A stretch of DNA of 22,020 nt from a virus, in the IMG/VR virus record IMGVR_UViG_3300021378_000183, positions 1 through 22,020 of that record; one strand, written 5' to 3'. Made by a program: the position numbers and the translations under genes. The notes under the pieces are model-generated. The model did no database searches. It was given only the letters and a program-made list of their open reading frames with translations, and was not told the origin of the DNA. Below are positions 9,246-19,884 of this stretch, piece by piece (position 1 is the first letter of the stretch; every line of letters starts with the position of its first letter).

Positions 9246-10628
9246 TTATAAGTCGGATTTCTTTAGGAACTCTCGCATGTTCATAGACTGCTCTATTGTG
9301 GATTTTTGTTCAGGTTCGTCTGCCTTTATGGCATTTCCACGTTTTAGTTGATCCACTAGGTTGTTTGTAGTGACTGTCATTGCATCTTCATCACCATCCT
9401 GAAGATCTTCTATCCGTAATGTGTCAGGATCAAATCTTAAATCTACTTTAGTGCCAACACCACTACTACTTCTTGTTTTCATAAATTGTATCTGATATCT
9501 ACCCTTTTCTCTCATAGCATTACTTGTAAAAATACCCACAACATTATCTGCTGTCTGTATTTTACTAATACCACCTGCTATATGATGATGATCGAATTCT
9601 ATTTCTTCTACAGCACCTCTGTTTAACTGTGAAGCAGTAACAAATAATAAGTCTCTTTCAACTGCTAAGTTACGCAACTCCTCAGATACATATTTGTCTT
9701 TAATAAACAAATCACTACCACTTACCTTTGCACTGATAGGCATCATTAAATCCAAGTAATCAACTAATAAACAATCTACTTTTTCACCACAAGATATTTC
9801 ATATTCACGTAAAAATACTCTGATATCATTTACATTTACACCATTTGGCATCTGTTTTACTCTAAGTCTACCAGCACCTTTGGCTTTCATACGAACTTTT
9901 AAATCTACATCATCCATATTACGCATTATTTCTTTTGTACCAAATCCACTTACCATACTGTCTAATCGCATACTAATTAATTGTTCACTAAGCTCTAAAC
10001 TGATATAAACAGTATTCATACCTGCCAATGCCCAATTAACAGCAAAGTTTTGTAAAAACAAACTTTTACCTGCACCAGATCCACCAGCAAAAATAGTCAT
10101 TTCGCCTCTGTTTAATCCACCATATAGTTTTTGATCTATTCCTTTCCAGCCTGTGCTAATAGCACCTGACTGATCTTTTATCCATTGCAATCGCTCTTTC
10201 GGATTTTCAAAATAATCTAAACCTAAATCTTTTACTAAGCCTACCTGGCTTGCTTCTTTAATTTTATTTTCCACAGTACCATAGTCTTGTTTTTCTAACA
10301 AGTCTGTGCTTTCAATAATTGCTTTTTCTAATGCTTTGTGTCTGCAGAATGTCTCGAATTCATTCATAAACCATTCATGATGATCAGGCGTCACATTTGG
10401 AATAGGTTCCAGTTGTATACCTGCTACTGCACTTACCTGCTCAGGCGTAGGAATAGCATTGTGGCTTGTGCTGTGAGACTCAAATAACTCAACTGCTTTT
10501 CGATACTTTAAGTTAAAAAACTCAGGTTTTACAATATTTTGACACCTAGCAAATAAGTCTTTATCACTTAGTAAAAATCTTAAAAATAATTCTTGTGTTT
10601 CTTCTGTATATGTTTTTATATCTGCCAT
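9246..10628 (-). CDS. 41: Replicative DNA helicase gp41 (DnaB family)
   Basis: The protein has 460 residues, close to T4 gp41 (475). It is the ring helicase that unwinds DNA 5' to 3' at the fork and works with primase gp61. An N-terminal helical domain (1-130) is followed by a RecA-type core: Walker A GGSGAGKS at 182-189, YISLELS (the strand and Glu after motif 1a, about 208-214), Walker B CLLVDYLDLM at 286-295, a QLNRG motif (about 341-345) with the sensor Gln, and FMKTRSSSG near the arginine-finger region. The start has an AGGAAA ribosome site. The upstream SGNH-like gene overlaps it by 13 bases. T4 also has 61 and 41 close together with small genes between. Confidence 0.93.
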   Translation of the reverse strand: MADIKTYTEETQELFLRFLLSDKDLFARCQNIVKPEFFNLKYRKAVELFESHSTSHNAIPTPEQVSAVAGIQLEPIPNVTPDHHEWFMNEFETFCRHKALEKAIIESTDLLEKQDYGTVENKIKEASQVGLVKDLGLDYFENPKERLQWIKDQSGAISTGWKGIDQKLYGGLNRGEMTIFAGGSGAGKSLFLQNFAVNWALAGMNTVYISLELSEQLISMRLDSMVSGFGTKEIMRNMDDVDLKVRMKAKGAGRLRVKQMPNGVNVNDIRVFLREYEISCGEKVDCLLVDYLDLMMPISAKVSGSDLFIKDKYVSEELRNLAVERDLLFVTASQLNRGAVEEIEFDHHHIAGGISKIQTADNVVGIFTSNAMREKGRYQIQFMKTRSSSGVGTKVDLRFDPDTLRIEDLQDGDEDAMTVTTNNLVDQLKRGNAIKADEPEQKSTIEQSMNMREFLKKSDL

Positions 10629-11329: not shown

Positions 11330-11457
11330 AAAACTGTCCATAAAAGCATAATTAACATAGGTACTTCATGCAGTAACAAATGTATGATTACAGAATATCC
11401 AAGTATTTGTTTCCAGTGTATCTTACATAAATTAAAAAAGTCGTTTATATATTTCAT
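11326..11457 (-). CDS. 43-aa membrane miniprotein between gp61 and the SGNH gene
   Basis: The protein begins MKYINDFFNLCKIHWKQILG and continues as a hydrophobic segment (about residues 18-43) ending MLIMLLWTVL, a likely single membrane helix. Its ATG overlaps the TGA of gp61 (ATGA), and its own TGA overlaps the ATG of the SGNH-like gene (ATGA), so it fits exactly in the gap and is translationally coupled on both sides. This is strong evidence of a real gene despite its size. The basic, aromatic N-terminus suggests an amphipathic region before the membrane segment. The function is unknown. Confidence 0.75.
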   Translation of the reverse strand: MKYINDFFNLCKIHWKQILGYSVIIHLLLHEVPMLIMLLWTVL

Positions 11458-12431
11458 AACATTTTTGCCTTTACTTGTACTTTTAATTTATTATCTGTGG
11501 AATGTTTTATAATACTTGCCAAAGTAGCCAATCTTCCATACTTAATAACCGCTTCATCGGCATCTTTAATGTCATTTGCCCAGGGAGGAAAACTTACCTC
11601 CCAACCTAACTCTAATGCCTGCTCTATAAGTTCTTTTCCTGCACTATCTCTATCAGGACATAGTATAACACGTTTACCTAATTTTTCAATCAGATGTGCC
11701 TGCTCTGGTGTAACACTATTACCTTGTATACTAACTCCATCTAGTTGAATTGCATCAAAAACACCTTCAGTCACAATTACAATTTCTCTTTTGCTATCAG
11801 CAAACCTATCAATATTAAAAACATACCCAGGTTGTATTTTATGCAAATACTTTGGTGTTGTTTTATTAGGAGGATCAATATGCCTTGCAGTCCAACCAAC
11901 TAACTCTCCATTATAAGTAAATGGAACAACCAGTCTCTGCTTATATAGACTCTCATCAAAATAAAGTAATGGATATAGACCAAGCAGACCTCTTTGTTTT
12001 GCATATTGCTTTATACTATGTGTATCTGGCAAATCTTCTACTGCTACGGCTGTGTCTGGCAGTTTCTCCGTGCTGAACTTTTGTAAGTTGTATATATAGT
12101 CGCCCGGCTCCTGTTCTTCTAAGACATCATTATATTTTAATAATTCAATTTGCACTTTATGTATATCTGAATCGGATACACCCAGTATAGATGCTAAATC
12201 TTTATATTTTTTCCCTAAATTTGGATTTGGTGCCCAACCTGTAGTAAAACCACAATTAAAACAATTATAACTTATTCTAGCACCAGTTGTAATTAGTCCG
12301 CCCCTTTTTCTCTTATCATTACACATAGGACAATCCATAGTAATCCAGCCACTAGGAGTTTTTGTTGTTCTAACGGGTAAATTATCTAAAAGTAGCCTAT
12401 GTACTTTTTCTACAAGAAAGTCGATATCCAT
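11454..12431 (-). CDS. 61: DNA primase gp61
   Basis: The protein has 325 residues (T4 gp61 has 342). It makes RNA primers for lagging-strand synthesis with helicase gp41. It has an N-terminal zinc ribbon (CPMC at 34-37 and CFNC at 57-60), a central region with YFDESLYKQRLVVPF, and a Toprim domain: TEGVFDAIQL with Glu222, CPDRDSAG with Asp260 and Asp262, and a DIKDADEA stretch near 287-294. The ATG at 12431 has no ribosome site; the sigma70 promoter just upstream would start the mRNA at or within a base or two of the ATG. Its TGA overlaps the following miniprotein start. Confidence 0.92.
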   Translation of the reverse strand: MDIDFLVEKVHRLLLDNLPVRTTKTPSGWITMDCPMCNDKRKRGGLITTGARISYNCFNCGFTTGWAPNPNLGKKYKDLASILGVSDSDIHKVQIELLKYNDVLEEQEPGDYIYNLQKFSTEKLPDTAVAVEDLPDTHSIKQYAKQRGLLGLYPLLYFDESLYKQRLVVPFTYNGELVGWTARHIDPPNKTTPKYLHKIQPGYVFNIDRFADSKREIVIVTEGVFDAIQLDGVSIQGNSVTPEQAHLIEKLGKRVILCPDRDSAGKELIEQALELGWEVSFPPWANDIKDADEAVIKYGRLATLASIIKHSTDNKLKVQVKAKML

Positions 12432-13323: not shown

Positions 13324-13710
13324 GTGGAGAAAGACAACCTTATAACAGAAACAACTGAGCGATACCCTTTTCTGACTGGTATACAATACGGACAAGGAGA
13401 ATACATAGGCATTGTTGTGAATCATGATAATGCTATAATGACTTTTTATGATGTATCAAAAATAAACAATGAAAAAGAACGTGAAGAGTTCCTAGAGCTA
13501 GGCGAAACCTGGTGGTGGGAAAGTAACAGACAATTGCCTATAGATATATTTTTACATCATGAAATGAAACAATTTCATAGATGTTTAAGGACCTTTGTAA
13601 TGAAAGATATAGAAATACTTTTTGGTCCTATAACCAGTTTACAAAATCTTCTTAAAAAGAGAATTAAAAGAAGAGGCGTACAACTTGTAATTAAACATAA
13701 AGATAACTAA
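13324..13710 (+). CDS. Conserved phage protein of unknown function, the only plus-strand gene
   Basis: A 128-residue protein with conserved-looking segments RYPFLTGIQYGQGEYIGIV, ETWWWESNRQLPIDIFLHH and LKKRIKRRGVQLVIK, a type I know from marine T4-like phages without a function. The only in-frame start before the conserved part is GTG at 13324 (an upstream TAG at 13276 closes the frame). It has no ribosome site, and the late-type box at 13311 would begin the mRNA on this codon, so translation may be leaderless. It ends flush against the minus-strand gene at 13711: the two stop codons are adjacent. The C-terminus is basic, which may mean nucleic-acid binding. Confidence 0.75.
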   Translation: MEKDNLITETTERYPFLTGIQYGQGEYIGIVVNHDNAIMTFYDVSKINNEKEREEFLELGETWWWESNRQLPIDIFLHHEMKQFHRCLRTFVMKDIEILFGPITSLQNLLKKRIKRRGVQLVIKHKDN

Positions 13711-14283
13711 TTACAAATTTTCAACAATTAAATTTAATTGAACTAATATTGCTAAAGCATACCCATAACTATGACTTTTCTTAAAAAAGTAAGTATTATC
13801 ATTAGGTTTTATCCAAACATCTGCTTCAACTTCGGACCAAGTTTTACCTACTAGATGTCTTTTACCTGGTCTAATCATTGCTAATATCATTGCTAATTGA
13901 TCTATATTTTTAGGTTTATATTGTTTTACAATATCAAAATGATTATTAATATGAAATAATTGTTCTACAACTTCTTGATGTTCTAGTAATTCCCACATTG
14001 GTTCTGTACTAATAAGTTTATCCAAATGCTGTTCATCTTTTATGCCTTTGTAAACATGATTGTTTAAAAAATCTACTTTAAACCAACCATCTTGTTCTGC
14101 TTGTTTGTGATCTATTGTGCTATAGCCTTCTAGTGGAAACTTTGGAATATTTTGAAAATAAACACCAGTATTGTGTTTAGTAAACTTACCATCTTTTTCT
14201 ATACTAGCAGGTGTGATATTTACTAACTTGAGAAAATCCTCTCTGTTAGCCATATCAATATCTACATCAAAATCTATTTTCAT
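13711..14283 (-). CDS. Miniature DnaE-like (family C polymerase palm) protein
   Basis: A 190-residue protein with four hallmarks of the bacterial DNA polymerase III alpha core in the right order: DFDVDID at 4-10 (in DnaE, PDFDVDF with two catalytic Asp), KVDFL at 69-73 (in DnaE, KFDFLGL with the third catalytic Asp), LAMILAMIRPG at 130-140 (in DnaE, ALxRPGP), and KKSHSYGYAL at 168-177 (in DnaE, NKSHAxAYAL). HNTGVYF at 37-43 fits the DnaE stretch with HAGGV. The distances are much shorter than in DnaE (about 60 residues between the Asp motifs, against about 150), and PHP, fingers, OB and tau-binding parts are absent. Its start overlaps the stop of the oxygenase gene (ATGA). All three catalytic Asp are kept, so nucleotidyl transfer is possible; a regulatory or decoy role is the alternative. 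Confidence 0.8.
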   Translation of the reverse strand: MKIDFDVDIDMANREDFLKLVNITPASIEKDGKFTKHNTGVYFQNIPKFPLEGYSTIDHKQAEQDGWFKVDFLNNHVYKGIKDEQHLDKLISTEPMWELLEHQEVVEQLFHINNHFDIVKQYKPKNIDQLAMILAMIRPGKRHLVGKTWSEVEADVWIKPNDNTYFFKKSHSYGYALAILVQLNLIVENL

Positions 14284-14942: not shown

Positions 14943-15125
14943 TTATTTTTTAAGTTTTTTGTAGCCTTTTGAATAATTATCTTCTGGATCTATCTCTGCA
15001 TCAGCATTCATAAACCTCATACGTTGTATAAGATCCCAATTTATGCCGTCACTTGGCTTCCATTTTTCTTTAATACTAGTCATATCATTTAAATCAAAAG
15101 ATTTATTATTTTGTTCTTCGTTCAT
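14943..15125 (-). CDS. 60-aa hydrophilic protein of unknown function
   Basis: A polar protein of 60 residues (MNEEQNNKSFDLNDMTSIKE, ending KGYKKLKK), without membrane segment or known motif. Its ATG overlaps the stop of the zinc-finger gene (ATGA), and the oxygenase start follows three bases after its stop. The fit between two coupled genes supports it as real. Confidence 0.65.
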   Translation of the reverse strand: MNEEQNNKSFDLNDMTSIKEKWKPSDGINWDLIQRMRFMNADAEIDPEDNYSKGYKKLKK

Positions 15126-15832
15126 ATTCCTGCTACCTCACATGCCTGTTTTACTTCAGCAACTTCTTCTTTATTTTGTACAAATAATTTCATCCAAAAA
15201 TTTGCTTCAATAATATGTTCTATCATTTTTACTTGTTCATCACTAAATCTAGGCAATAACTGATCTCCTGTTATACTTAAATATATTAACCAAGGAGATA
15301 TTTTAGCACTTCTTATATCGTGTACCGCTCTTGAAGTACTAACTTCATTAAAATAATTTTGCCATTGAGTGCTATTATCTTTTGCCCAAGTATCTAAGTA
15401 CATAATATTTCGTTCTAAGGCTTTCATACCTGGTTCTTTTTTAACATAAGTCAGTAAAAACTCATCATATAATTTATCTTTACTCCAATCTGCTAATTTT
15501 TTACCTTCTTTAATTAACCACTCTGCAAATTTTTCTGGTTGTAAGTATTCATTTGTAATACAACTTCTACCAAACTTTACAAATCCTTCATAGTATTGAC
15601 TTTTTATAAAATCTTCATGTGTTTTAGATTTAGTTGCAGTAGTATTTAGTTCATAAAACATCTGAAATACTCTATATCCTAATCTTGTATGTGTTAAGTC
15701 CTTATCAGCCCAACGTCTTTTCTTTACACACATATGGGCACTCAGAGTTCTTTCGCTCATGAAACTTTTTTCACACCATTTACAAGTATTACTTTCCAAA
15801 GATTTCCTTGATTGATTTGTCATCATAACCAT
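15122..15832 (-). CDS. Zinc-finger protein of T4-like marine phages
   Basis: A 236-residue protein with an N-terminal zinc-finger-like motif: CKWC at 17-20 and SAHMC at 31-35 (C-x2-C-x12-H-x-C), followed by KKRRW. The rest is helical with conserved-looking stretches YYEGFVKFGRSC and LYDEFLLTYVKKEPGMKALERN. I know this combination as a recurrent uncharacterised protein next to replication genes in T4-like marine phages. Binding of DNA or RNA is probable from the finger and basic tail. The first ATG at 15832 overlaps the gp62 gene by 44 bases; ATGs at 15826 and 15823 are equally possible, and no clear ribosome site decides. Confidence 0.75.
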   Translation of the reverse strand: MVMMTNQSRKSLESNTCKWCEKSFMSERTLSAHMCVKKRRWADKDLTHTRLGYRVFQMFYELNTTATKSKTHEDFIKSQYYEGFVKFGRSCITNEYLQPEKFAEWLIKEGKKLADWSKDKLYDEFLLTYVKKEPGMKALERNIMYLDTWAKDNSTQWQNYFNEVSTSRAVHDIRSAKISPWLIYLSITGDQLLPRFSDEQVKMIEHIIEANFWMKLFVQNKEEVAEVKQACEVAGI

Positions 15833-16256
15833 TTGATTTTGCTAAATCCTTTAATTCGTCAGTTGTATTAATATCAATTAGATTGTCTATATCCTCACTT
15901 TTCATATGAGGGAATAATCCATATATAAATTCAAAAACTTTATTTTTCTTTTTTCTTGCATTAGGCGGTTTTAAATATGGATGAAATTGTATTTTACCAA
16001 CACCACAGGCACTTAGAAGCAACCATTGTAACTCAGGATGTTTACTAACTTCGCTAAATTGAAAGTTTACAAGTTCATTAGTCATGTATATATAATTTGT
16101 GGCATCTTTTCCCTGTACACTACTACAATACCTCATCATCATCCAGGCACTAAAGGCTTTTTTACCTTCATCCGTTAGGTTATTATAAAAGTTTCTATCC
16201 TTTTTGTCAATTGCCGCCATTATATCTTTTAATGGAATTTGAGGTTTTCTGGCCAC
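15789..16256 (-). CDS. 62: Probable clamp-loader small subunit gp62
   Basis: A 155-residue protein that I match, from memory, to the gp62 clamp-loader subunit of T4-like marine phages: VPLKD-like start (PQIPLKDIMAAIDKKD), FYNNLTDEGKKAF, SAWMMMRYCSSVQG, HPELQWLLLSACGVGKIQFH and a helical end. With gp44 it loads the sliding clamp gp45 onto DNA. T4 gp62 has 187 residues. The start is GTG at 16256, sharing one base with the TAG of the upstream gene (TAGTG), with GGAG about ten bases before. The gp44 and gp45 genes are not in this window. The identity rests on motif memory rather than a search. Confidence 0.72.
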   Translation of the reverse strand: MARKPQIPLKDIMAAIDKKDRNFYNNLTDEGKKAFSAWMMMRYCSSVQGKDATNYIYMTNELVNFQFSEVSKHPELQWLLLSACGVGKIQFHPYLKPPNARKKKNKVFEFIYGLFPHMKSEDIDNLIDINTTDELKDLAKSNGYDDKSIKEIFGK

Positions 16257-16555
16257 TACTCTAAGTCTCCATCTGGATTCGAATAATCTATAAAATCTCT
16301 TTGTACTATCTCTGTCATAAGTTCTTCCAAACTGTATTTGGCATGATAAAATAGCTCATAGTCTTTTTCATCTAGCATTGAGTTTGTTACTAACGTTGTA
16401 AGGTTATGTATTGTTCTCATAAATCTAATAACTTCTGCATCATCGCTAGGCACATCACTAAGATCTAAATTTACCCACCAATCATCATTTGTTATATCAG
16501 CAGTTTCTAAATCTTTTCGTATACCTGGAAATTGTATTATATTATCTTTTGCCAT
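16256..16555 (-). CDS. 99-aa acidic phage protein of unknown function
   Basis: A 99-residue acidic protein beginning MAKDNIIQFPGIRKD, with a helical body (SDDAEVIRFMRTIHNLTTLV, YELFYHAKYSLEELMTEIV). The N-terminal NIIQFPG phrase is frequent in small phage proteins, but I cannot attach a function. It is coupled on both sides: its ATG overlaps the apt stop (TAATG), and its stop overlaps the gp62 GTG. Being placed directly before gp62 suggests a replication-linked role. Confidence 0.7.
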   Translation of the reverse strand: MAKDNIIQFPGIRKDLETADITNDDWWVNLDLSDVPSDDAEVIRFMRTIHNLTTLVTNSMLDEKDYELFYHAKYSLEELMTEIVQRDFIDYSNPDGDLE

Positions 16556-17097
16556 TATTCTCCCTCAAATTCGATTAATGTTTCTACATTAAATCCTGCT
16601 TCTTTTAATACAGCACTTCCTCCTAAATCAGGAAGATCAATTACTGCCAACACTAATATATTTTTTTTAGATATATTAAATTTACTGCTTATTAAATCAG
16701 CACAGGCATATGCAGTACCACCTGTTGCTATAAGGTCATCTATTATAACAATTTTATCGTTTTTTGTCAATTCTGAACATTTTTGTATGTGTAATTCTGC
16801 AGTTCCGTATTCTAATTTATATTCTTTACAGTATGTAGGATTAGGTAACTTGCCTGGCTTCCTAGCAAGTAGAAAAGGTAATTCTAAATCTCTAGCAATA
16901 GGAGACCCAAACACAAACCCTCTGCTTTCTATTCCTATAATTTTTGTTGCATTAAACATCATACAACTAGCAGTCATGTCAATAAGTGCTTTATTTAGAG
17001 CTTCTGGGCGTTCTAATAGGCTTGTAATATCCCTAAACTGTATACCTTCTATAGGAAAATTAGGAACGGTTCTTATATATTCTTTTAATTCTTTCAT
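16555..17097 (-). CDS. apt: Adenine phosphoribosyltransferase
   Basis: The protein has 180 residues, close to E. coli Apt (183). The enzyme converts adenine and PRPP to AMP. It has the N-terminal FPIEGIQFRDITSLL (residues 14-28), ESRGFVFG at 57-64, ARKPGKLP at 78-85, and the PRPP-binding loop VIIDDLIATGGTA at 117-129. All landmark residues are there, so it should be active. The ATG overlaps the stop of the upstream gene (ATGA), and the stop overlaps the next start. In a phage it would salvage adenine, including adenine released from methylthioadenosine if SAM is consumed in quantity; metK lies three genes upstream. Confidence 0.92.
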   Translation of the reverse strand: MKELKEYIRTVPNFPIEGIQFRDITSLLERPEALNKALIDMTASCMMFNATKIIGIESRGFVFGSPIARDLELPFLLARKPGKLPNPTYCKEYKLEYGTAELHIQKCSELTKNDKIVIIDDLIATGGTAYACADLISSKFNISKKNILVLAVIDLPDLGGSAVLKEAGFNVETLIEFEGE

Positions 17098-17420
17098 TCT
17101 ATTTTTAACTTAAAAATTGTTTCCCATTCTGCATATTGGATAGTATCAAAATATTTTGGAGGATATGTAGGTGCTGTCCATTTTATCGAACGTTGTCTTT
17201 TATAAATTGTTTTTAACCAAACTTTATGACCTGCTATTGTTTCAACAGGTCTCCATGCAAACCATTTTTTCCATTTGGAATATTCTGGTTGTGTTGGATC
17301 TTTCAAATGTGGATACCTCGTGTAAGCAGGATGACTAAAATTTGTATTTAGTTTTTTTCCTTTTATAATGTTTTTTGATAATTTCTTGTTGTTTCCATCG
17401 CCTGTGATTATTTTCTCCAT
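17094..17420 (-). CDS. Small phage protein with FAWRPVETIAGHKVWLK core
   Basis: A 108-residue basic protein. The conserved-looking part starts near FSHPAYTRYPHLKDPTQPEY and includes FAWRPVETIAGHKVWLKT and a C-terminal YAEWETIFKLK; I know similar short proteins from T4-like marine phages, function unknown. I chose the ATG at 17420, preceded by GGAGAG, over a GTG at 17429. Even so, its first 28 residues overlap the GIY-YIG gene by 86 bases, which is far more than elsewhere in this window, and the conserved part begins just where that gene ends. A start inside, or a fusion by frameshift at the A7 run (17352-17358), are alternatives. Confidence 0.65.
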   Translation of the reverse strand: MEKIITGDGNNKKLSKNIIKGKKLNTNFSHPAYTRYPHLKDPTQPEYSKWKKWFAWRPVETIAGHKVWLKTIYKRQRSIKWTAPTYPPKYFDTIQYAEWETIFKLKIE

Positions 17421-17691
17421 TCTCTCCACCCCAACTAGAATTTAACTTTAAATTTTGTGGTACTCGTTTAATTAACTTCTTTTCCCAATCTAATGCTTCT
17501 TCCATAGTAGGAAATGTTTGTATCACTCTAGCATCACAATCATATTCGGCATTTCGCATTTTTTTATACAAAAGACTTTTACCTTTTTGGCTTGCTTTTA
17601 AATGCTCTGTTAATCTGAAATTAAATGGTTTTGCTGTATATCCATAATAAACAAATCCATCTTTGAATCTGATTTCATATACTTTAAACAT
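17335..17691 (-). CDS. GIY-YIG-like endonuclease domain protein
   Basis: A 118-residue protein. The first 90 residues follow the GIY-YIG nuclease fold: VYEIRFKDGFVYYGYTAKP at 4-22 (Y-E-I and Y-Y-G-Y-T standing for GIY and YIG), FRLTEHLK at 25-32 with the catalytic-type Arg26, and a conserved Glu in EALDWEKKLI at about 65-74. Such single-domain proteins occur as free-standing homing or repair nucleases in T4-like phages. The C-terminal 28 residues are a low-complexity Lys/Arg tail read across the start of the next gene. The ATG overlaps the metK stop (TAATG). The domain is fairly clear; whether the tail is genuine is not. Confidence 0.7.
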   Translation of the reverse strand: MFKVYEIRFKDGFVYYGYTAKPFNFRLTEHLKASQKGKSLLYKKMRNAEYDCDARVIQTFPTMEEALDWEKKLIKRVPQNLKLNSSWGGENGENNHRRWKQQEIIKKHYKRKKTKYKF

Positions 17692-18785
17692 TAAAACAAG
17701 TCAATACGCTCATAAGGTAAATCAGATTTACCAAAATGTCCATAATTTGTTGTTGTCGTAAGGTTCAGATCAAATAAATTAAACTTATCTATAATTCCTT
17801 TAGGTGTTAAATTAACATTATCTACTATCCAACTTGCAAGGTCTTGCCTAACTTCTCCGTCAGCATACACATAAACACTTGTAGGTTCTATAACACCAAT
17901 TGCGTAACTTAATTGTACTGTGGCATTTTTTGCCTTGCCGCCTGCTACAATGTTTTTAGCCAAGTACCTAGCCATATAAGCCGCACTTCTATCTACTTTG
18001 GTACAGTCTTTACCACTAAAGGCTCCGCCGCCATGTGGTGCATATCCGCCATAAGTGTCTACAATTATTTTTCTACCTGTTAATCCTGTGTCTCCATCTG
18101 GACCACCAATAACAAATCTGCCTGTAGGATTTATTAAAAAATCTACTTTATCTAAATCGTATTCTGTTATTTCCTCTCTAATAAGTTCTTCTAAACTTTT
18201 TCTTACTTGCTCTATAGTTACATAATCTTTATGCTGAGTACTGCAAACTATTTTATCAATACTAACAGGATCATTAATACCGTTATAACTCATAGTTACC
18301 TGAGATTTGCTATCTGGCTGTAACCAATTTAATGTATTATTTGTTCTTTCACTTTGTAGTCTTCGTAATATTCTATGACTAAAATGTATAGCACTTGGCA
18401 TATAGTCTTCAGTTTCATTACAGGCATACCCAAACATTAGACCTTGATCACCTGCACCAAAATTATCTGTTCCTAATGCTATATCAGGAGATTGGCCATG
18501 CAGTTCGTTATATACTTTTAATTTTTCCCAATGAAAGCCGTCTTGCTCATATCCAATATCTCTTACTACAGCTCTAATAAGTTTTTCAATATATACTTTA
18601 TCAAACTTATCGCTTTTATATTCACCTGCTAATGTAACCATATTTGTAGTAACTAATGTTTCTACAGCCGCTCTGTGATTAATATTTTTATCTATCAGGT
18701 ATGTAGCAACTGCATCTGATATTTGATCTGCTATTTTATCTGGATGTCCTTTACTGACACTCTCACTTGTGAATTGATAACTCAT
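17691..18785 (-). CDS. metK: S-adenosylmethionine synthetase
   Basis: The protein has 364 residues, slightly shorter than bacterial MetK (about 384). It makes S-adenosylmethionine from methionine and ATP. Seen: FTSESVSKGHPDKIADQISD at 5-24, VTLAGEYKS near 50-58, the hexapeptide GAGDQG at 110-115 inside GAGDQGLMFGYA, NPTGRFVIGGPDGDTGLTGRK at 219-239, and the P-loop-like GGGAFSGKDCTKVDRSAAY at 252-270. All these are signatures of an active enzyme. The start and stop overlap the neighbours (TAATG). A phage copy should raise SAM supply for DNA or RNA methylation, or for other SAM-using steps during infection; no methyltransferase is visible in this window. Confidence 0.95.
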   Translation of the reverse strand: MSYQFTSESVSKGHPDKIADQISDAVATYLIDKNINHRAAVETLVTTNMVTLAGEYKSDKFDKVYIEKLIRAVVRDIGYEQDGFHWEKLKVYNELHGQSPDIALGTDNFGAGDQGLMFGYACNETEDYMPSAIHFSHRILRRLQSERTNNTLNWLQPDSKSQVTMSYNGINDPVSIDKIVCSTQHKDYVTIEQVRKSLEELIREEITEYDLDKVDFLINPTGRFVIGGPDGDTGLTGRKIIVDTYGGYAPHGGGAFSGKDCTKVDRSAAYMARYLAKNIVAGGKAKNATVQLSYAIGVIEPTSVYVYADGEVRQDLASWIVDNVNLTPKGIIDKFNLFDLNLTTTTNYGHFGKSDLPYERIDLF

Positions 18786-19084
18786 TAATTATCTCCTTCT
18801 TTTACAAAAATACCATCTACCATGCGGCCTTTTCTATCTTTTATATCATCATATGCTACAGTTAGGCATTCTTCCATTGTGATATTATTTCTTTTCATAA
18901 TGTTTATCATTACAACCATCATATCACCTAAATCATCTCTAATATCATTTCCTTTGCATACATTATCAGATAACTCGCCCATTTCCTGAATTAGTTTTAA
19001 TACCTGATCTTTATCTGTTGCACCGTCAATTAAGTTTCTATCAATGTGCCATTTTTCTATAAGCTCTATAAGTTCACTAGTCAT
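18785..19084 (-). CDS. MazG-like nucleotide pyrophosphohydrolase
   Basis: A 99-residue, all-helical protein of the MazG/dUTPase-like superfamily. The metal-binding pattern appears as QEMGELSD at 33-40 (E-x2-E-x2-D) followed by DDLGDMMVVM at 50-59 (D-x2-D), and the size agrees with a single MazG domain. Such enzymes hydrolyse (d)NTPs to monophosphate and pyrophosphate, and phage forms have been linked to nucleotide-pool or ppGpp control. It sits between the kinase-nucleotidyltransferase and metK, with TAATG overlaps on both sides. Confidence 0.82.
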   Translation of the reverse strand: MTSELIELIEKWHIDRNLIDGATDKDQVLKLIQEMGELSDNVCKGNDIRDDLGDMMVVMINIMKRNNITMEECLTVAYDDIKDRKGRMVDGIFVKEGDN

Positions 19085-19884
19085 TATAATTTTCCTTCAT
19101 CTTTCATTTGTTTACGAATATTTGTAGCACTAATATCTTCTATGTCTGCGTCAAAAGATTCCTGCTCTACTTTATACCCTACATCTCTGCCATACGTTAT
19201 GTTCATAATATTTGGTACCGGATAACATCTAAACTTACCGGCATATTGGGCTAATGATATTTCAATATTCTCGCATATTTTGTCTACTTGCCAAGGATTG
19301 TCGTCAGTTAAAGGCATATCTCTAACAAGTATTGCTACCTGCCCATGTTTTTCTAATGCTCTTTCAAATAGTGCTTTATGGCCATCATGAAATGGTTGGA
19401 ATCTTCCTAGCATTTGTGTAGTTGGTTGCTTAGGTTGGAACTCATGATCCTTTAAATCTACAGCAATTAATCTTGCCCATTCCTCTACTAAGTCTTCTGT
19501 CCACCATTCGTCAGCAGTTATTGTTACATTTATAAATGTACTGCCGTCTGGTTTTTCAAACATCTTGTTTGTGTCCTCAAACCTTCCTTCATCAATAGTG
19601 TCCATCCATATTATATACTCTGGAACATTCTTTTCACGAAGTTCGTTTGTAGGGCATACAAAATCTGCTACACCATAATTACCTTTTGCAACACTTTTGC
19701 GAACATAATCTCTCATTCGCAATGATTGTCTTTCTCTACCTTCAGGAGAAAAATCCCAATCATTAAATGTTTCACGTATTTTATCTGCATTATGCCAGTC
19801 TGCATTACCTAGTATTTCTACTAATTTTTCTGCAAGAGTAGATTTACCAGACCCTGGTAAACCAAAAATTAAGACTCGTTTCAT
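19084..19884 (-). CDS. Bifunctional P-loop kinase and HxGH nucleotidyltransferase
   Basis: A 266-residue fusion. The N-terminal part (1-145) is a P-loop kinase of the adenylylsulfate-kinase type: Walker A GLPGSGKST at 8-16, NADKIRETF at 32-40 (as DxDxxR), FSPEGRERQSLRMRDYVRKS at 45-64. The C-terminal part (about 155-266) is a cytidylyl/adenylyltransferase: GRFQPFHDGHKAL at 160-172 with HxGH at 166-169, and DISATNIRKQM at 250-260 (ISxTxxR motif). The domain order is the reverse of NadR, where the transferase precedes the kinase. Possible products are a nucleotide cofactor such as NAD or a CDP-linked metabolite; an APS/sulfate function cannot be assumed from similarity to CysC. The domains are clear; the substrates are unknown. 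Confidence 0.85.
   Translation of the reverse strand: MKRVLIFGLPGSGKSTLAEKLVEILGNADWHNADKIRETFNDWDFSPEGRERQSLRMRDYVRKSVAKGNYGVADFVCPTNELREKNVPEYIIWMDTIDEGRFEDTNKMFEKPDGSTFINVTITADEWWTEDLVEEWARLIAVDLKDHEFQPKQPTTQMLGRFQPFHDGHKALFERALEKHGQVAILVRDMPLTDDNPWQVDKICENIEISLAQYAGKFRCYPVPNIMNITYGRDVGYKVEQESFDADIEDISATNIRKQMKDEGKL

Follow-up and report, generated by a model that had tools for sequence, protein, structure and literature searches.

What does a phage protein of only 190 residues do that carries the catalytic motifs of the DNA polymerase III alpha subunit (Pol III alpha; DnaE in E. coli)? This question is raised by a 22,020-nucleotide stretch of viral DNA, positions 1 to 22,020 of the IMG/VR record IMGVR_UViG_3300021378_000183 (hereafter the window), in which an open reading frame (ORF) on the minus strand, 14283..13711, encodes such a protein; the plus strand of 13711-14283 is dense with stops. 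From its ORF, its PHROG family, profile comparisons and its predicted fold, the protein, which we call half B, is almost certainly one half, the C-terminal one, of a minimal Pol III alpha that is split in two. The whole is best explained, with a probability of roughly 0.7, if a minimal family C DNA polymerase core is spread over two genes, with half B as its C-terminal subunit and the other subunit, half A, encoded by a distant gene.

Half B retains the catalytic residues of DnaE in a compressed frame

The sequence-only reading had reported four DnaE core motifs with HNTGV among them, and all of these were found at the expected residues and in the expected order: DFDVD (4-8), HNTGV (37-41), KVDFL (69-73), MIRPG (136-140) and KKSHSYGYAL (168-177). 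Family alignments defined the conserved register of the first motif as DVDID (codons D6-D10, 14254..14268; all codon positions here are on the minus strand). Its metal-binding Asp residues D6, D8 and D10, equivalent to E. coli D401, D403 and D405, are invariant in 65 sequences aligned with DnaE, and D4 varies. The third catalytic Asp, D71, lies in KVDFL (codons K69-L73, 14065..14079), corresponds to E. coli D555 and is likewise invariant, so that the proposed retention of three catalytic Asp residues (D6, D8 and D71) was borne out. In the same alignments, HNTG (codons H37-G40, 14164..14175) corresponds to E. coli H511-G514, and RPGK (codons R138-K141, 13861..13872) contains the RPG motif of the fingers, E. 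coli R639-G641. A C-terminal helix, residues 169-188 (13720..13779) in the AlphaFold model, carries the invariant H171; its E. coli counterpart in the alignment is H760, modelled as the steric gate of the O-helix (PMC8485763).

Among the residues invariant in the 65 sequences are D6, D8, D10, H37, G40, K69, D71, R138, P139, K141, H171 and Y175, and the invariance of the metal-binding Asp residues, the Lys and the steric-gate His holds down to ~32% identity. Thus, the metal-binding and sugar-contacting parts of the enzyme have been retained. Furthermore, the ratio of nonsynonymous to synonymous substitutions (dN/dS) of half B against nine close relatives was 0.06-0.13, indicating purifying selection; together with the invariant catalytic residues, this rules out that half B is a pseudogene.

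The spacing between these residues is about half that of DnaE, as the sequence-only reading had noted: D8 and D71 are separated by 63 residues versus 152 in E. coli, and D71 and H171 by 100 versus 205. The shortening could be mapped to defined deletions. D10 and H37 are 27 residues apart versus 106 in E. coli, an interval that holds the thumb region, and the thumb is deleted; R138 and H171 are 33 residues apart versus 121, and the fingers motifs YQEQV (686) and RRAMGKK (709) found no match in the 65 sequences. Half B is also devoid of the PHP, HhH, clamp-binding, OB and C-terminal parts of DnaE, and a Pfam search detected no PHP, HhH or OB domain in it. The fingers, which had been listed as missing along with the PHP, OB and clamp-binding parts, are reduced rather than absent, since the fingers include both the RPG motif and the SH..Y O-helix. 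Finally, the GRGS motif of the palm is absent from the 190-residue half B and sits on half A; the idea of a compressed DnaE core thus holds for the relationship to DnaE and for the Asp triad, but half B is not self-sufficient.

Profile and fold comparisons assign half B to Pol III alpha

Half B belongs to phrog_11778 (PHROG profile search, E 7e-69) and also matches phrog_405, the family of full-length phage DnaE proteins (E 8.5e-5). A profile built from 65 relatives matched a seven-member DnaE alignment with a probability of 94.7% (E 5.7e-8), the match spanning residues 35-141 of half B and 509-642 of E. coli DnaE. Nearly all matches of the half B profile in the PDB were to Pol III alpha, each non-significant alone (E 0.19-2.5). 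The signal for half B was too weak in Pfam and NCBIfam alone, and a PDB search with the single sequence returned only chance matches (mambalgins, E 1.4). An AlphaFold2 model built from 64 sequences (the window and viral-contig rows) had a mean predicted local distance difference test score (pLDDT) of 89.3. It aligned end to end, over 180-188 of its 190 residues, with DnaE and PolC structures and corresponded to E. coli DnaE 397-780 (Z 8.7 to 2hnh; best Z 9.3), whereas the next, unrelated fold reached a Z of only 3.6. Foldseek likewise placed Pol III alpha chains at the top (best E 0.0027), and in the structure alignment palm and fingers account for the entire ORF. A profile-profile search and a structural model were among the checks that the sequence-only reading had proposed, and both point to DnaE. 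Because PHROG, profile-profile and fold matches agree, the likeness of half B to DnaE is not due to chance.

The remaining palm is encoded by a separate gene

A search with phrog_405 found half A as a separate ORF of ~158-177 residues in each of four large related genomes. Half A carries GVGRGSS, passes the Pfam cut-off for DNA_pol3_alpha (E 1.6e-8 to 5.3e-12), ends at position 94-95 of that profile and belongs to phrog_11127 (E 3e-85 to 5e-36). Its end (..EFLK) coincides with FERFLN of E. coli DnaE, which ends at about residue 393, and half B starts at the next conserved block of DnaE, PDFDVDF (400). The AlphaFold model of half A (pLDDT 88.8) corresponds, over residues 51-156, to E. coli DnaE 278-393 with a Z of about 11, and its top 17 Foldseek rows were all DNA polymerases, most of them entered as Pol III alpha or PolC. 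Because the two models align consecutively, together they tile DnaE 278-780 with a gap of ~3 residues. Neither the end of half A nor the start of half B shows an intein-like extension. The first 50 residues of half A (L131:10007-10474) are confidently predicted and have no counterpart in the DnaE alignments; the length of this N-terminal segment of about 50 residues differs among phages.

We also compared the distribution of the two halves by matching the accession lists of A and B across 50,697 phage records. Half B was present in 63 records and half A in 63, with 62 common to both. The sole record with B and without A is 109 kb long and comes from a phage with relatives of >340 kb, and the sole record with A and without B is a 9.9-kb contig in which the match is weak and partial. 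Both halves were present in all of the large related records (15/15). A fused ORF was not found in a set of 100 A and 100 B ORFs, nor did any locus of up to ~20 kb contain both halves. The two genes lay ~11 kb apart in 141-kb Alishewanella phages, ~14 kb apart in Stenotrophomonas phages and ~180 kb apart in Atu_ph07. Half A is also encoded on a 250-kb contig, the half B of which has 83% identity to the copy in the window. Furthermore, pairwise distances of A and B were correlated across 16 genomes (r 0.91; 0/5000 permutations). Relatives of half B numbered 239 in a first scan of public viral contigs and at least 571 in a second, and the split Pol III alpha is widespread in large T4-like phages.

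A family B polymerase was present in 15/15 related large records and in Slicko01; two contigs of 180 and 191 kb, possibly incomplete, gave no match. In three phages the family B polymerase (gp43-like) matches two separate frames, for example of 578 and 418 residues: Atu_ph07 (NC_042013, 212336-213688), PA5oct (NC_071039, 217618-221395) and Slicko01 (OQ508956, 3529-5033). Judged by these frames, this polymerase also appears to be split in the three phages. A DnaQ-type exonuclease, considered as an obligate partner of the split enzyme, was present in 12 of 16 records and is hence not obligate by the search used. Three further families of 461-782 positions resemble half A close to one of their ends, phrog_7513 (367-436 of 461), phrog_13169 and phrog_11165, which could mean that other phage groups, too, have a DnaE that is divided or rearranged close to its active site.

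Half B has a conserved place in a replication gene cluster

Synteny was compared across 168 loci, each count being limited to the loci with enough sequence. A small convergent gene, phrog_11637 (13324..13710, plus strand), stands tail to tail with half B, mostly within ~10 bases, and is kept in 161 of 162 loci; conservation this strict suggests that the two are linked in function or regulation. Past it follow a virion-annotated gene (138/140 loci), then a Toprim DNA primase (11454..12431, minus strand; 115/116) and a DnaB-like replicative helicase (9246..10628, minus strand; 87/89). Upstream of half B, at a distance of two or three genes, a phrog_11058 protein that weakly matches a C2H2 zinc finger is encoded (15122..15832, minus strand; 125/133), and a phrog_11758 protein (15789..16256, minus strand) is a conserved upstream neighbour in 118 of 124 loci. 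The sequence-only reading had named gp62 and an oxygenase as neighbours. The identity of the phrog_11758 protein as gp62 could not be confirmed, and the 2-oxoglutarate (2OG)-oxygenase does adjoin half B in the window yet does so in only 39 of 153 loci, and was rejected as a partner. In Slicko01, a gp44-like clamp-loader gene stands ahead of the half B cluster.

Farther upstream in the window, 16555-19884 (minus strand) holds what looks, by sequence appearance, like a run of nucleotide-metabolism genes, with ORFs resembling adenine phosphoribosyltransferase, GIY-YIG proteins, S-adenosylmethionine synthetase and nicotinamide-nucleotide adenylyltransferase; the phosphoribosyltransferase-like ORF gave a weak match when scanned.

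Relation to known split and single-chain enzymes

The sequence-only reading knew of no description of the function of this protein. A split minimal Pol III alpha had in fact been described in group 2.2 jumbo phages by Iyer, Anantharaman, Krishnan, Burroughs and Aravind in 2021, who predicted it from genome comparison and named Atu_ph07 as a group 2.2 phage (PMC7824862). We find relatives of both halves in Atu_ph07, and half B of the window, a stand-alone C-terminal half with the Asp motifs and no other Pol III alpha domains, does not differ in kind from the enzyme of Iyer et al.; the window is a marine-type metagenomic relative. The kind that they described also comprises an NTP-binding N-terminal half on a distant gene of the genome and an accompanying family B polymerase. 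Earlier genome papers noted an alpha-like protein only: that on CBB called it truncated, at 172 residues (PMC5259590), which is the size of half A, and that on Atu_ph07 listed a predicted alpha subunit (PMC6102473). In PHROG, phrog_11778 and phrog_11127 are both annotated 'DNA polymerase' and not as halves of one enzyme. The present analysis adds to the 2021 prediction a 141-kb non-jumbo host, near-perfect co-occurrence and conserved synteny, as well as a mapped junction, a deletion map, structural support and the invariant steric-gate residue.

Half B shares the palm, RPG and O-helix motifs and the fold of bacterial DnaE and PolC. In contrast to the halves, these are single chains of ~1160 residues with PHP, thumb, full fingers, HhH, OB and clamp binding, all of which are lost or reduced in the phage proteins; and whereas DnaE and PolC hold GRGS and the Asp triad in one chain, the break in the phage core falls between E. 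coli residues 393 and 397. In cyanobacteria, DnaE is likewise encoded by two distant genes, and its halves are spliced into one chain by a split intein. The cyanobacterial break lies at another site, and inteins of this kind have no visible equivalent on the phage halves.

A proposed two-subunit active site and its alternatives

In the mechanism we propose, half B would give the metal-binding D6, D8 and D71 and the palm elements K69 and H37, along with shortened fingers consisting of the RPG loop and the O-helix with its steric-gate His, H171. Half A would contribute the remaining palm with the GRGS loop, which in DnaE holds the triphosphate of the deoxynucleoside triphosphate (dNTP). As intein-like extensions are not seen at either end, the halves are proposed to associate non-covalently, and together they would rebuild one active site that adds dNTPs. 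The pair is likely an active nucleotide-adding enzyme, and a templated polymerase is plausible. Its role would most likely be to assist the phage family B replicase, with the adjoining primase and helicase, in brief stretches of synthesis, for example to extend primers, fill gaps or bypass lesions. That two halves of ~160-190 residues each assemble into a family C polymerase that lacks a thumb, is active on a template and works alongside a family B replicase is a more tentative proposal, on which we would place somewhat less than even odds.

Several points weigh against a two-gene polymerase core. Half B has lost the thumb and the QEQ/RRAMGKK segment of the fingers, which DnaE keeps invariant or strongly conserved; contacts with template and triphosphate must therefore be unlike those of DnaE, and it is chiefly for this reason that templated synthesis calls for caution. 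The correlation between A and B distances would equally arise from shared phage descent. Half A and a family B polymerase are absent from the 22-kb fragment, itself too short to show a distant gene, and a literature search, with preprints and most subscription papers outside its scope, found no experimental test of the split enzyme.

Since most template-binding parts are gone, the two halves might instead form a nucleotidyltransferase that tails ends or transfers nucleotides in some other way without a template. The loss of the thumb and of that fingers segment fits such an enzyme, as does the full family B replicase in related genomes; the invariance of the RPG motif and of the O-helix His equivalent to the DnaE steric gate H760, and the conserved place in a replication gene cluster, make it unlikely. 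The same replicase, together with the small size and lost domains of the halves, would also suit a non-catalytic remnant with a structural or regulatory part in replication, for example as a replisome scaffold. This is more improbable still, as invariant metal-binding Asp, Lys and steric-gate His residues in such diverged sequences would be unexpected without catalysis, and dN/dS is low. Hardly credible, finally, is a half B that acts alone, either as a single-chain mini polymerase or transferase or as the decoy, bound to clamp loader or polymerase partners of the host, that the sequence-only reading had considered. Its Asp triad in one chain and its small size would allow this, but the GRGS part lies on a separate, co-occurring gene, the DnaE parts that contact clamp, tau and the epsilon exonuclease are the very ones missing, and its catalytic residues are invariant. 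A reading of the protein as an unknown family is likewise not supported.

Implications

We return to a two-gene minimal family C core as the preferred explanation. Several isolates can be cultured on laboratory bacteria, so that the 2021 prediction is directly testable. An active pair would set the minimum for a C-family polymerase core and would be a case of two unlinked genes that jointly provide a single polymerase active site in trans; if the proposal is true, these phages would have a replisome with two polymerases, one of family B and one of family C.
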